Shown: positions 47,972 to 59,855 of the stretch, in pieces | Layout of the letters: each line of letters begins with the position of its first letter | Numbering within the stretch: the stretch's first letter is position 1 | Origin: Acidobacteriaceae bacterium | GTDB taxonomy: Bacteria; Acidobacteriota; Terriglobia; Terriglobales; Acidobacteriaceae | NCBI GenBank assembly: GCA_003139095.1 | Contig: PLHW01000046.1 | Span: forward strand, 62,001 to 126,000 | DNA length: 64,000 bases | Direction: 5' to 3' | Position numbers and translations under genes: made by a program | The notes under the pieces: model-generated | Told to the model about the DNA's origin: nothing | The model's database searches: none | The model's input: only the letters and a program-made list of their open reading frames with translations

Positions 47972-48094
47972 CTACAGCAGGCCAGAACTGCGTAGACGGT
48001 GAACCGGGTCCGTCGCCGGGACGGCCTGACGTTTAAAAACCCAGCGCGCTACTGCGATTCCTAATGCGGCGTAGCAAAGATGCCAGATCTTCAT
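47972..48094 (-). CDS. Candidate 40-residue small protein
   Basis: ATG 48094 has GGGGAG upstream; the product MKIWHLCYAALGIAVARW has a short hydrophobic start, then KRQAVPATDPVHRLRSSGLL. Supported only by the ribosome site and the start's composition. Could be chance. Confidence 0.3.
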   Translation of the reverse strand: MKIWHLCYAALGIAVARWVFKRQAVPATDPVHRLRSSGLL

Positions 48095-48425
48095 AGTTCG
48101 CTCCCCACGCCGGACCCAGCTTGGGGAGTGATACGCGGGTCCCGCCGTGAACCAAACTTAACCTTGTTCCATCGCGAGGTCCAGTCCACGAATGTGCTAT
48201 GACCCTGCCCAAAAGGTCATCGCGCAGGTAACTTCTGGCAGATAAGGAAGATTTTACGCGGGAAAAACCGCCGCGCCCCGCGTCGCAAGAGATCAAACAA
48301 AGAAAAGATTGCAGGAAGGGAAGATTGAATGAAGGAAAGAGAAGTCCGCAATCTGCCAAGGCCCGCGCGCCAAGCGAAAAGGAACTGCGGTTCTAGCTCA
48401 ACACTCGGAACTCGCGACTCGAAGC

Positions 48426-49583
48426 TCACTCAATCCACCCGCCCCCCACCACCACGTCCCCATCGTAAAAAACCGCTGCCTGCCCCGGAGTCACCGCCCG
48501 CTGCGCCTCATCGAACGTCACCACAACTTCATCCGGCCCAGCGCTCTCAATCACCGCCGCCGCCGGCGCATGCTTATGCCGAATCTTCACCCCAACCCGC
48601 ATCGGCCCATCAATCGCCGCAACAGAAATCAAATTCACCCGCCGCGCCCGCAGCGTCCGCGTATAAAGCTCCTCGTCCCGTCCCACCACCACCTGCCGCG
48701 TATCGTTGTTGATCTGGATCACATAAAGCGGCGACCCCGTCGCCACGCCCAGCCCCTTCCGCTGCCCAACCGTAAAGTTGTGCACGCCCGCATGCTCCCC
48801 AATCACCGCGCCGTCGGTGGTCACCATCTCGCCGCCCACATCCAGTCGCGCCTCCGCGCCCTGCTCCGCCAGATACGCATCCAGAAACTTCTTGTAATCG
48901 CCGCCCGGAACAAAACATATTTCCTGCGAGTCCGGCTTCTCTGCAATCACAAGATTGTACGTACGCGCCAGCTCCCGCACCTCCGGCTTCGTCATCCCGC
49001 CCAAGGGAAATAAAGTCCGCGCCAGCTGCTCCTGCGTCAGCCCAAACAAAAAATAAGTCTGATCCTTCGATCGATCGACCGGTCTCTTCAGTAGCCACCG
49101 CCCGCCAGCGTCGTCAAATGCGACCTGCGCATAATGCCCGGTAGCAATCCGCTCTGCCCCAATCTGCCGCGCCACAATGAGTAGCTGGTCAAACTTCAAG
49201 TGATTGTTGCAAAGACTGCAAGGAATCGGCGTGCGCCCCGCCAGATACTCCTCCACAAAAGGCCGCACCACCTCGCGCTCAAACCGCTCTTCATGATTGA
49301 CGACGTAATACGGAATCCCAATCGTCTCCGCCACCCGCCGCGCATCATACACATCGTCCAGCGAACAGCACCGCCCCGTCGTCGGGGCCCCCAGCGAGCC
49401 CGCTTTTGGCTTGCTGGGGTGATTGACCGACTCCGGCATCCCCTCATGCCCAGCCAGCCGCCGCTGGTTCCAAAGCTGCATCGTGAGGCCGATAACGTTG
49501 TGCCCCTCCGCCCGCAGCATAGCCGCCACCGTAGAAGAGTCCACCCCTCCCGACATAGCCACGGCAATAGTTTCTGAAACCAA
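48426..49583 (-). CDS. mnmA: tRNA 2-thiouridine(34) synthase MnmA
   Basis: Adds sulfur at U34 of Lys, Glu and Gln tRNAs. 385 residues from TTG 49583 (GGGAGATGGAGC upstream); the longer open frame upstream reads into a repeat. ATP PP-loop SGGVDSS at 11-17, catalytic LCN cysteine near 125 (PIPCSLCNNHLKF), KDQTYFLF, SQEICFVP (second catalytic Cys, about 220) and HNFTVGQRKGLG. Between the PP-loop part and RCCSLDDVYDARR, where most relatives have a short loop, about 20 residues (MPESVNHPSKPKAGSLGAP) are encoded by a palindromic element. The sulfur donor, a cysteine desulfurase, is encoded next door. Confidence 0.95.
   Translation of the reverse strand: MVSETIAVAMSGGVDSSTVAAMLRAEGHNVIGLTMQLWNQRRLAGHEGMPESVNHPSKPKAGSLGAPTTGRCCSLDDVYDARRVAETIGIPYYVVNHEERFEREVVRPFVEEYLAGRTPIPCSLCNNHLKFDQLLIVARQIGAERIATGHYAQVAFDDAGGRWLLKRPVDRSKDQTYFLFGLTQEQLARTLFPLGGMTKPEVRELARTYNLVIAEKPDSQEICFVPGGDYKKFLDAYLAEQGAEARLDVGGEMVTTDGAVIGEHAGVHNFTVGQRKGLGVATGSPLYVIQINNDTRQVVVGRDEELYTRTLRARRVNLISVAAIDGPMRVGVKIRHKHAPAAAVIESAGPDEVVVTFDEAQRAVTPGQAAVFYDGDVVVGGGWIE
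49389..49419. repeat. Palindromic element inside mnmA
   Basis: CCCCAGCGAGCC (49389-49400) and GGCTTGCTGGGG (49408-49419) form a 12-bp stem with one mismatch around CGCTTTT. It lies in frame within mnmA and encodes the extra loop residues PSKPKAGSLGAP. Confidence 0.75.
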
Positions 49584-49608
49584 AGCTCCATCTCCCAAAA
49601 ACCAAACC

Positions 49609-49650
49609 GTCATCCTGAGCGAAGCGAGCCCCGCGGAGTCGAAGGACCCC
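49609..49650 (+). repeat. GTCATCCTGAGCGAAG dispersed repeat
   Basis: Single copy upstream of mnmA, with the trailing GAGTCGAAGGACCCC found also in the tandem array at 59702-59855. This word family is widespread in bacterial genomes and often yields spurious 'CHPERSE' translations. Confidence 0.8.
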
Positions 49651-49745
49651 AGCACACTAAACCTCACACAGCCGCGTCAAGGTGTTCTCCCCGCGCGCTC
49701 GATTGCAAGCATACCGCGAGATAACTCTCGATTCGATACCACGAC

Positions 49746-51041
49746 CTAGCTTGCTGCTCGCGGCTCGAGGCTCGCAGCTCCCCTCCACACCGGCGACAAC
49801 TCTCGCAACCGCGCCACCGTCTCCGGCACCACCGCCAGCGCAAACTCCACATCCTCCGCCGAATTCATCTTTCCCAGACTAAACCGAATACTCCCCCGAG
49901 CCCGTTCAGCCGTCATCCCCATGGCCATCAGAACATGCGAAGGCTCAATCGCCCCCGAAGAACAAGCCGCCCCGGTAGACACCGCCAGCCCCTTCAAATC
50001 CAGAGCAATCACCAAAGCCTCGCCATCAATCCCCTCAAAATAAATATTCGAAGTATTCGGCACTCGCAACGGAAGCCCCGATCCCTTCAAATTCTCAAGC
50101 GAGCGATCATTCTTATCGGAACCATGAGGGCGCCCCACACATCGCGCCGTTTGAGATGTGTGGGTGCCGACACCATTCACCCCACAAGCCTCAATCGCAA
50201 GCAACTCCCCCTCCAGCCGATCCCGCAGCGCCGCCATCTTCAAATCGTCCCCGCGCTCCAGTCCCGCCCGCGCCAACTCCGCCGCTGCTCCCAATCCCAC
50301 AATCCCCGGAACATTCTCCGTCCCCGCCCTCCGCGACCGCTCATGCCGCCCGCCATGCATCTGCGCCTCAAGCTCCGTCCCCTTCCGGACATAAAGCGCC
50401 CCCACTCCCTGCGGCCCATGCAGCTTATGCGCCGAAAGAGTCAGCAAATCGCATCCAACCTCATCCACTCGCACACGAATCTTCCCCGCCGCCTGCACCG
50501 CGTCCGTGTGAAAATAAACGTCGGCCTCGCGCGCAATCGACCCAATCTCCCCAACCGGCTGCACCATCCCGGTTTCATTATTCGCCATCATGATCGAGAT
50601 CAACCGAGTCGAAGACCGCAACGCCCGCCGCACATCCTCCGGGTCGACCACCCCACTCGCATCCACCGGCACATAAGTTACCGCGCATCCCTGCGACTCC
50701 AGCCGCCGGCAAGCATTCAAAACCGCGTGGTGCTCAATCGTCGAAGTGATAATGTGATCGCCATTGCCAATCACCCCGGCCCGCGCATGCCCGGCCACAC
50801 CAAACACGGCCAGGTTATCCGCTTCCGTCCCGCCGCTGGTAAACACTATCTCCGATGCCCGCGCCCCAATCAGCGCGGCCACGCTCTCCCGAGCCCGCTC
50901 CACCGCCCCCCGCGTCTGCTGTCCATGCGAATGAATCGACGAGGCATTCCCAAAGCGCTCCGCAAAATACGGCCGCATCGCCTCCAATACCTCCGGCAGC
51001 ACCGGAGTAGTGGCGTTGTTGTCGAGATAAACTCGCCCCAT
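49746..51041 (-). CDS. Cysteine desulfurase (IscS/NifS family)
   Basis: PLP enzyme releasing sulfur from cysteine as a persulfide. 431 residues from ATG 51041 (GGAGG five bases upstream; longer starts to 51155 are not conserved). Marks: YLDNNATTP, EHHAV His104, SAHKLHGP with PLP Lys206, catalytic Cys360 in TGAACSSGAIEPSH. Between the RLEGELLAIEACGVNG strand and RVPNTSNIYFEGIDG the family has about five residues; here about 35 residues (291-325, including SQTARCVGRPHGSDK) are encoded by a palindromic insertion. It should pass sulfur to MnmA, encoded 160 bp downstream. Confidence 0.94.
   Translation of the reverse strand: MGRVYLDNNATTPVLPEVLEAMRPYFAERFGNASSIHSHGQQTRGAVERARESVAALIGARASEIVFTSGGTEADNLAVFGVAGHARAGVIGNGDHIITSTIEHHAVLNACRRLESQGCAVTYVPVDASGVVDPEDVRRALRSSTRLISIMMANNETGMVQPVGEIGSIAREADVYFHTDAVQAAGKIRVRVDEVGCDLLTLSAHKLHGPQGVGALYVRKGTELEAQMHGGRHERSRRAGTENVPGIVGLGAAAELARAGLERGDDLKMAALRDRLEGELLAIEACGVNGVGTHTSQTARCVGRPHGSDKNDRSLENLKGSGLPLRVPNTSNIYFEGIDGEALVIALDLKGLAVSTGAACSSGAIEPSHVLMAMGMTAERARGSIRFSLGKMNSAEDVEFALAVVPETVARLRELSPVWRGAASLEPRAAS
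50129..50168. repeat. Palindromic element inside the cysteine desulfurase gene
   Basis: CCCACACATC (50134-50143) and GATGTGTGGG (50155-50164) form a perfect 10-bp stem, extended by GGCGCC/TGCC near-matches on both sides, with loop GCGCCGTTTGA. It sits in frame and accounts for part of the extra residues. Confidence 0.75.
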
Positions 51042-51147
51042 CATGACCTCCATTGTACCGGTATGACGGGGTCGGAAACGTGCGGCGAGCACCCCTAGCG
51101 TGCGCCGAGAGCCCATAAATGGAAGGATCTGCTTTCGAGCCTCTAAA

Positions 51148-51177
51148 TTCTGCAATCTGACCTCTTACCTCTAACCT
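51148..51177. repeat. ACCTCT-type repeat, copy 1
   Basis: A 30-base segment after the cysteine desulfurase start region, containing CTGACCTCTTACCTCTAACC, recurs at 54778-54807 with 27 of 30 bases identical. It is made of TACCTCT/GACCTC words of period 8-9. Confidence 0.75.
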
Positions 51178-51180
51178 ACC

Positions 51181-52317
51181 CTACCTCTCCTCCATCCCCA
51201 CCCACTTCTGCGGATACGCCGGCCCCACATACTCCGCCCGCGGCCGGATCAGCCGGTTATCGTCCAGTTGCTCGATCACGTGCGCCGTCCACCCGCTCAC
51301 CCGCGACACCGCGAAAATCGGCGTGAACAAATCCACATCGATTCCCAGCGTGTGATACGTCGACGCCGAATAAAAATCCACGTTCGCATTCAGCTGCTTG
51401 TCGACGTTTATAAACTCTTCGATCTTCCGCGAATACTCAAACCACTTCGGATTTCCGCTCGACGTTCCCAGGTCCTGCGACATCTTTCTCAAGTGCGTCG
51501 CCCGCGGATCCTCCGTGTGATACACGCGATGTCCAAACCCCGGCACCTTCTTTTTCTGCCCCAGCATCCCCTTCACATACTCCACCGGGTCCGCGCCCAC
51601 CGCATCGATCTCCATCAGAATCTTGAATACCGCCTCATTCGCTCCCCCATGCAGCGGCCCTTTCAGCGTCCCGATCGCCGACGTGACCGCCGAATGCATA
51701 TCCGACAACGTCGCCGCCGTCACGCGCGCCGCAAAGGTCGACGCATTCAGCTCATGGTCCGCATGCAATATCAGCGCAATATCGAACGCCCGCTCCGCCG
51801 TATCCGTCGGCGCCGCGCCGTTCAGCATCAGCAAAAAATTCGCCGCATGCGACAGCGCCCGGTCCGGCTCCACCAGCGGCTTCCCCTTCCGTATCCGGTC
51901 GTAATTCGCCACCAGCATCGAGATCTGCGACGTCAGCCGGATCGCCTTGTTCACGTTCGCGTCATGATCGTTCTTCGCCGCCTCCGGATCGTAGTACGAC
52001 AGCGTCGAGGTCAGCGTCCGCAGCATATCCATCGGCGAAACATGCCGCGGCACCAGTTGCAGCCGGTAGATGATCGACGAATCTAGCTTCCGCTCCTCCG
52101 CCATCCGCCACTTCAGTTGCCGCAACTCATCGGCCTTAGGCAGCCGCCCATACCACAGCAGGTAGCAGACCTCCTCAAACGTGGAGTTGTCCGCCAACTC
52201 ATGTATATCGATCCCGCGATACGCCAGCACGCCCGCCTCGCCATCGATGTAGCAAATTCCCGAGGTGGTCGCAACCACCCCCTCCAACCCCTTCGATGCA
52301 TGTTCAACGTTCGACAT
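51181..52317 (-). CDS. Citrate synthase
   Basis: Condenses oxaloacetate and acetyl-CoA (or propionyl-CoA). 378 residues, the shorter 'Gram-positive/archaeal' type. ATG 52317 follows GAGGA. His in ADHELNAST, the substrate block GPLHGGANEAV and GFGHRVYHTEDPRA, catalytic Asp in NANVDFYSASTYHTLG, and C-terminal AHVIEQLDDNRLIRPRAEYVG are all present. It could be a citrate or 2-methylcitrate synthase; context does not decide. Confidence 0.94.
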   Translation of the reverse strand: MSNVEHASKGLEGVVATTSGICYIDGEAGVLAYRGIDIHELADNSTFEEVCYLLWYGRLPKADELRQLKWRMAEERKLDSSIIYRLQLVPRHVSPMDMLRTLTSTLSYYDPEAAKNDHDANVNKAIRLTSQISMLVANYDRIRKGKPLVEPDRALSHAANFLLMLNGAAPTDTAERAFDIALILHADHELNASTFAARVTAATLSDMHSAVTSAIGTLKGPLHGGANEAVFKILMEIDAVGADPVEYVKGMLGQKKKVPGFGHRVYHTEDPRATHLRKMSQDLGTSSGNPKWFEYSRKIEEFINVDKQLNANVDFYSASTYHTLGIDVDLFTPIFAVSRVSGWTAHVIEQLDDNRLIRPRAEYVGPAYPQKWVGMEER

Positions 52318-59662: not shown

Positions 59663-59855
59663 GAGCGAAGTAAGGTGAGCCAGGGAAACAAGGAGACAAC
59701 CCATCTCTGTCATCCTGAGCGAAGTAAGATGAGCCGGGGGTCAACTCATCTCTGTCATCCTGAGCGAAGTGAGGTGAGCAAGGGGACAAATCATCTCTGT
59801 CATCCTGAGCGAAGTGAGGTGAGCGCAGCGAGCCGAACGAAGTCGAAGGACCCCT
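59663..59855. repeat. Tandem GTCATCCTGAGCGAAG repeats, about 45-bp period
   Basis: Copies begin CATCTCTGTCATCCTGAGCG at 59702, 59747 and 59792 (exact 45-bp spacing), with a degenerate unit before 59702. The last continues into GTCGAAGGACCCC. A single relative is at 49609-49650. Confidence 0.85.

Follow-up and report, generated by a model that had tools for sequence, protein, structure and literature searches.

A short repeated hairpin, apparently spread by its own small transposase, is read through as loops in acidobacterial enzymes

A short repeated hairpin, apparently mobilised by a small transposase of its own, is read through as additional loops in the enzymes of an acidobacterium from soil. 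The example from which this picture emerges is a cysteine desulfurase gene in a stretch of 64,000 nucleotides from an Acidobacteriaceae bacterium (assembly GCA_003139095.1, contig PLHW01000046.1, positions 62,001 to 126,000; hereafter the window). The extra segment of this gene is very probably a copy of an acidobacterial, RAYT-associated REP family which has an unusual 5' foot and which inserts in frame into loops. REPs carry the word extragenic in their name, although some enter genes. The genome contains a family of these repeats, with copies around each of the three RAYT genes found in it and with in-frame copies in enzymes, and in relatives the same sites are found empty, filled by alternative hairpins or, in one case, occupied by an eroded copy.

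The desulfurase gene (49746–51041, minus strand) encodes a protein of 431 amino acids of the IscS/NifS type (Pfam Aminotran_5, 1.1e-84), which scores 501 bits against the TIGR03402 FeS_nifS model, below the model's cut-off of 531. Between the nearly invariant N289-G290 and the invariant R326 it carries a loop of 35 residues (residues 291–325; 50067–50171, minus strand) where most relatives have 4. The alignment comprises 110 rows, made up of the window and 109 loci and excluding L019, which is the window itself; the loop has 4 residues in 95 of these rows, 3 in two and more than 4 in 13, such that the excess in the window over the usual length is 31 residues (93 nt). The initial annotation had described some 30 extra residues at this place and an in-frame palindromic insertion in an enzyme otherwise intact, including Lys206 and Cys360. 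The alignment bears out both the added residues and the absence of the insertion from most relatives, and with 95 of 110 rows at 4 residues the opposite case, in which most close relatives share the residues but lack the palindrome, does not apply. K206 and C360 are both invariant across 50 aligned sequences and, since these two residues are intact, the desulfurase is probably active; the other insert-bearing enzymes presumably remain active likewise.

A structure model had been proposed with that annotation as a means of judging whether the loop is exposed. The AlphaFold2 model (50 sequences) has a mean pLDDT of 82.7, with 252 of the 431 residues at 90 or above, and its fold agrees with that of E. 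coli IscS (1p3w; TM 0.82/0.91). Residues 293–321, by contrast with this confident fold, fall below a pLDDT of 50. Low confidence of this kind is that of a disordered loop and suggests that the insert is flexible, and this and the other insert-bearing loops are presumably exposed at the protein surface.

Within the loop, the repeated unit is a REP-like element at 50128–50164 (plus strand, model R1, see below), in which the head GGGCGC leads into the hairpin CCCACACATCGC / GAGATGTGTGGG, head and gene lying on opposite strands. The perfect 10-bp palindrome reported initially is present at its place, the two arms (50134–50143 and 50155–50164, 10 nt each) being 100% complementary, and the near-matches reported to flank it combine with it into one unit of 37 bp, made of a 6-nt head and a 12-pair stem of which 11 pairs are formed in the IscS copy. 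It is the sole perfect one of the two inverted repeats listed for 49700–51200 (at least 10 nt, within 60 nt), and its pattern, allowing up to 3 mismatches, occurs a single time in the window and in 0 of 100 shuffles. Model R1 gives the element 52 bits (E 7.2e-11, window search), a score to be read with the element itself among the model's training rows; the best four other genome matches to the stretch are 84–90% identical. The remainder of the loop DNA, about 60 nt without the hairpin (50067–50127, minus strand), matches other parts of the genome weakly at most (best E 0.08), on which ground it was rejected as a second repeat. A regulatory RNA of a known family was likewise rejected, Rfam having no match at E<=1 in 48000–51500.

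Across the genome the head GGGTGCCCCA was counted 40 times, as against 2 occurrences of the reversed control, and in most of the copies inspected it is followed by a strong hairpin. From 18 equally long copies, that of IscS included, a covariance model (R1) was built, and its genome search returned 80 matches (E<=0.01) in 77 distinct places, which is a lower bound because 150 of 3288 candidates were scored. The element is therefore one of a family repeated in at least 77 places, other genes among them, which upholds its reading as a mobile-looking repeat and goes against that of an insert unique to this one site. Covariation in the stems is evident in three measures, none of which was reached by any of 500 shuffles, namely the share of paired cells (98.1%), the number of stem cells changed on both sides (32) and the covariation score (0.417, versus 0.141 in shuffles). 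Two other measures, the number of pairs with a change on each side and that of further pair types, lie within the range of the shuffles (55/500 and 189/500, respectively).

The architecture of the family is a 5' foot, mostly GGTG, followed by a hairpin usually of 12 pairs which starts with CCCA and ends with TGGG, the ends of the stem being conserved and its middle variable. Of the copies, 73 are 34 nt or longer; 54 of these have the foot GGTG, 7 have GCTG and 12 have another sequence, a count which leans to GGTG because model R1 was built from GGTG-type copies. Neither GTAG nor GTGG stands at the foot in any of these 73, nor does CGTC, which is found directly before the head in one of them. 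The flanks, read by eye, established no target-site rule and no duplication. Adaptation to coding through avoidance of stop codons was considered and rejected: the 77 copies have on average 4.52 of 6 frames open, as compared with 4.34 in 500 shuffles, 27 of which were as high, and 4.65 in random 37-mers from the window. Five identical copies of 35 nt with the foot GGCTG form a subfamily, the places of which include C24, C47:9235, C47:13839 and C56:14552.

A second copy, overlooked initially, lies in the adjoining gene downstream of the desulfurase. This gene, mnmA, encodes the tRNA 2-thiouridine synthase (48426–49580, minus strand, start codon approximate) and scores 430.6 bits against NCBIfam NF001138, the cut-off of which is 284. 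Its in-frame insert of 45 nt, or 15 residues (49380–49424, minus strand, ends to within a few bases), is missing from all 78 other aligned loci, and empty-site DNA is seen in 5 relatives. Here the element runs from 49383 to 49419 on the plus strand with the degenerate head CGGGGC, before which stands CGTC (this copy is not one of the 73). Model R1, with this copy outside its training set, scores it at 25.4 bits (window search, E 2.3e-4), which is below the genome-wide threshold, so that it is not counted among the 77 places. Nearby, at 49611–49650, and again at 59711–59830, the window has repeats of another type, CATCCTGAGCGAAG..., and a string related to these stands in frame in the MoeA gene of L238, where it is translated as LSERSESKG.

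Eight of the 77 places fall inside genes supported by a domain match, those for IscS, UbiD, MoeA (two), the linker of an E2 acyltransferase, a GFO/IDH/MocA oxidoreductase and RAYT (two), to which the mnmA copy is to be added as a further in-frame case. The count covers domain-backed genes, and other places may still be coding; open reading frames lacking a Pfam match (L168, L193, L214, L169 and L221) and copies close to a potential start codon (L189, L197 and L202) were excluded from it. In UbiD the best domain stretch begins at residue 239, directly after the element, and in MoeA one copy is in the MoeA_N match and the other in the MoCF_biosynth match. The E2 copy occupies the linker that joins the E3-binding domain to the catalytic domain, and the GFO/IDH/MocA oxidoreductase has one in-frame copy.

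RAYT proteins are HuH single-strand transposases, and repeat copies that flank a RAYT gene on both sides are the usual mark of its substrate. The genome has three Y1_Tnp genes, on contigs C56, C9 and C47, of which two score above the NCBIfam cut-off for REP-associated tyrosine transposases, while the third has an internal stop and scores 68 over the part tested, the cut-off being 80. Elements were found on both sides of all three. By comparison, and with orientation ignored, a gene thrown at random is flanked on each side by a place no more than 700 nt away with a frequency of 0.015% (~0.00015). The copies form an inverted pair around the C56 gene (13868 plus, 14552 minus) and around the C9 gene (115869 plus, 116540 minus). 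At C47 inversion is doubtful, the sole opposite copy, 12875 (plus), being weak (27.6 bits) and the others running mostly one way. The copies flanking the intact C56 gene are of the weaker GGCTG type (32.1 and 27.5 bits), the one at C56:14552 belonging to the subfamily of identical copies. The C47 gene (the L161/L227 reading frame) contains in-frame copies between its HuH and Y motifs, and the region G000:C47:12359-14071 has elements densely set around and inside the RAYT gene, partly in tandem and read as repeated GAPFKPGF peptides. The dipeptide WQ is present in two of the three RAYT sequences and WE in the third. In genome G017 a model match falls, by coordinates alone, inside a Y1_Tnp gene. 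The genus members G004 and G008 gave no Y1_Tnp match despite having elements, both genomes being incomplete.

The same loops were compared across relatives. Among the 13 rows with more than 4 residues in the IscS loop, hairpins are present in the window, L020 and L021, and the loop DNA of L049 and L099 equals that of L020 and L021, with which they are probably the same genomes. The hairpin of L020 is of the type of the window, and L021 has a different stem at the same site. L025 (with L050) has 8 residues at this position, versus 16 residues and a hairpin in its sister L021; being 24 nt shorter, this remnant reads as an eroded copy which was shortened in frame. No hairpin was seen by eye in the six other long IscS loops (9–12 residues). 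In a tree of 32 IscS rows, the insert-free L060 groups with the window and L020 (95/86), which implies either two insertions or one insertion and a loss; a single insertion without loss is disfavoured by this placement, which does not decide between the other two. The end branch of the window in this tree is 0.25, longer than the 0.088 of its sister L020.

In MoeA, among 27 aligned genus loci, some of which are pieces of one gene, hairpins are present at the first site in L229–L232 and at the second in L229, the remaining loci having either a short loop or a longer one. Among 21 GFO loci the hairpins of L303–L308 join the window genome's own copy; stems are short in five (own, L303, L304, L305 and L307) and long in two (L306 and L308), and the other 15 loci have a short loop in the protein alignment, which for L322 stops before it. 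Of 25 UbiD loci, L257 and L266 have other hairpins of the family kind, that of L266 with the foot GCTG, and L258, L260 and L264 have in the same loop an in-frame, GTAG-tagged hairpin repeat (GTAGGGACGG...), such that the UbiD loop holds three different family-kind stems and a GTAG-tagged hairpin across orthologues. Several further UbiD rows have similar peptides which the search pattern missed. The UbiD copy of G008 was found independently by model R1. G010 (21 versus 4 in the control) and G003 (21 versus 3) are enriched in the 11-mer of the GTAG-tagged repeat, which shows no enrichment in the genome of the window (1 versus 3).

With 111 candidates scored per genome, model R1 at E<=1e-4 has matches in all 37 genomes from the same bacterial family and in 3 of 24 outside it (G038 with 12, G055 with 3 and G058 with 1), and the head pattern gives the same trend in a count in which one place may count twice. 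In another family of the class, at G055:C1:581284-581950, two inverted GGTGCCCCA heads enclose a Y1_Tnp match.

The variety of stems at single loops could also be produced by a host process, such as template switching or gene conversion between palindromes, which would copy hairpins at the loops and exchange their stems, leaving the RAYT a minor part. The arms that differ together in the short and long stems of the GFO loop would fit with such copying, as would the assortment of hairpins in UbiD, the two stems in IscS and the prevailing single direction of the copies at C47. An identical picture would, however, be left if a small number of tolerant loops received insertions again and again, and the presence of copies on both sides of every RAYT gene found argues against a host process, which we regard as improbable. 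More improbable again is retention of the inserts for a function, as mRNA hairpins controlling expression or as loops altering partner binding: IscS and MnmA act in the same sulfur-transfer pathway and have adjoining copies, and the same loop is occupied in several species, but the enzymes hit share no pathway, the IscS loop is modelled at low confidence, L025 appears to have lost most of its copy in frame and Rfam has no match in the region.

The reading as a RAYT-associated REP family is the one we prefer. According to it, the cognate RAYT would be the likely mover of the hairpin, which would be cut as a single strand, perhaps under the guidance of the foot, and then joined to the DNA of another site. 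Selection would remove copies that disable a gene, and those kept would be the ones that fall in a surface loop, contain no stop codon and have an overall length that is a multiple of three. Such copies would add extra, probably unstructured and presumably neutral residues, which may later erode through in-frame deletion. A wider form of this proposal, which we hold as tentative and on balance doubtful, is that a REP family with a new guide foot repeatedly targets, or re-targets, the same orthologous loops, resident copies exchanging their stems whole and acting as a continuing source of loop diversity family-wide. If true, a domesticated transposase system would be generating ongoing variation in the loops of housekeeping proteins throughout an entire bacterial family. 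The finding of the same loops empty, filled, differently filled and eroded in one genus makes the order and fate of insertions testable, and genus relatives provide naturally occurring enzyme pairs that differ in whether the loop is present. Moreover, alignments and structure models of proteins from this acidobacterial group would include transposon-derived segments.

The family resembles the GTAG REPs and REPtrons in being a short hairpin, one end of which bears an unpaired tag, present in many copies and around RAYT genes. A 2013 study (PMC3733652) describes intragenic REPs in several species of other phyla, a likeness shared by those acidobacterial copies that stand in frame in genes of known proteins, and groups acidobacterial tyrosine transposases as flanked by terminal inverted repeats, not by GTAG REPs; with these inverted repeats the present family may or may not be identical. 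The present family differs from the GTAG REPs in its mostly GGTG foot, in its occurrence in Acidobacteriota and in having different stems in the same loop across species. In a 2018 study (PMC6006769), RAYT genes of TnpA_REP subclass 2.4 contain in-frame REPs with GT[AG]G feet; one of our three genes, that on C47, is similar in having an in-frame REP between its HuH and Y motifs, and the family differs in its mostly GGTG foot. The initial annotation had compared the insert with the palindromic elements (RPEs) of Rickettsia. The resemblance stands in so far as palindromic DNA is read in frame inside unrelated housekeeping proteins, and is not supported as close kinship, the acidobacterial family having its own foot and stems and surrounding RAYT genes; the RPEs serve as an analogy. 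The intragenic REPs of Rickettsia conorii are, in PMC3733652, equated with RPE-4 and RPE-6 and tied to a CGTC tag, repeats with this tag having no association with transposase genes. Because the foot differs, the acidobacterial family is best placed as a variant of the REP/RAYT system which is neither a canonical GTAG REP nor an RPE. The earlier suggestion that no such insertions are described for this lineage agrees with the absence of any report of intragenic REPs in Acidobacteriota among the literature matches listed, with most subscription papers outside that scope, although the two studies provide precedents for the kind. In other words, insertions of this kind are already published, and what is new to us is the foot, the phylum and the recurrence of the family in the same loops.
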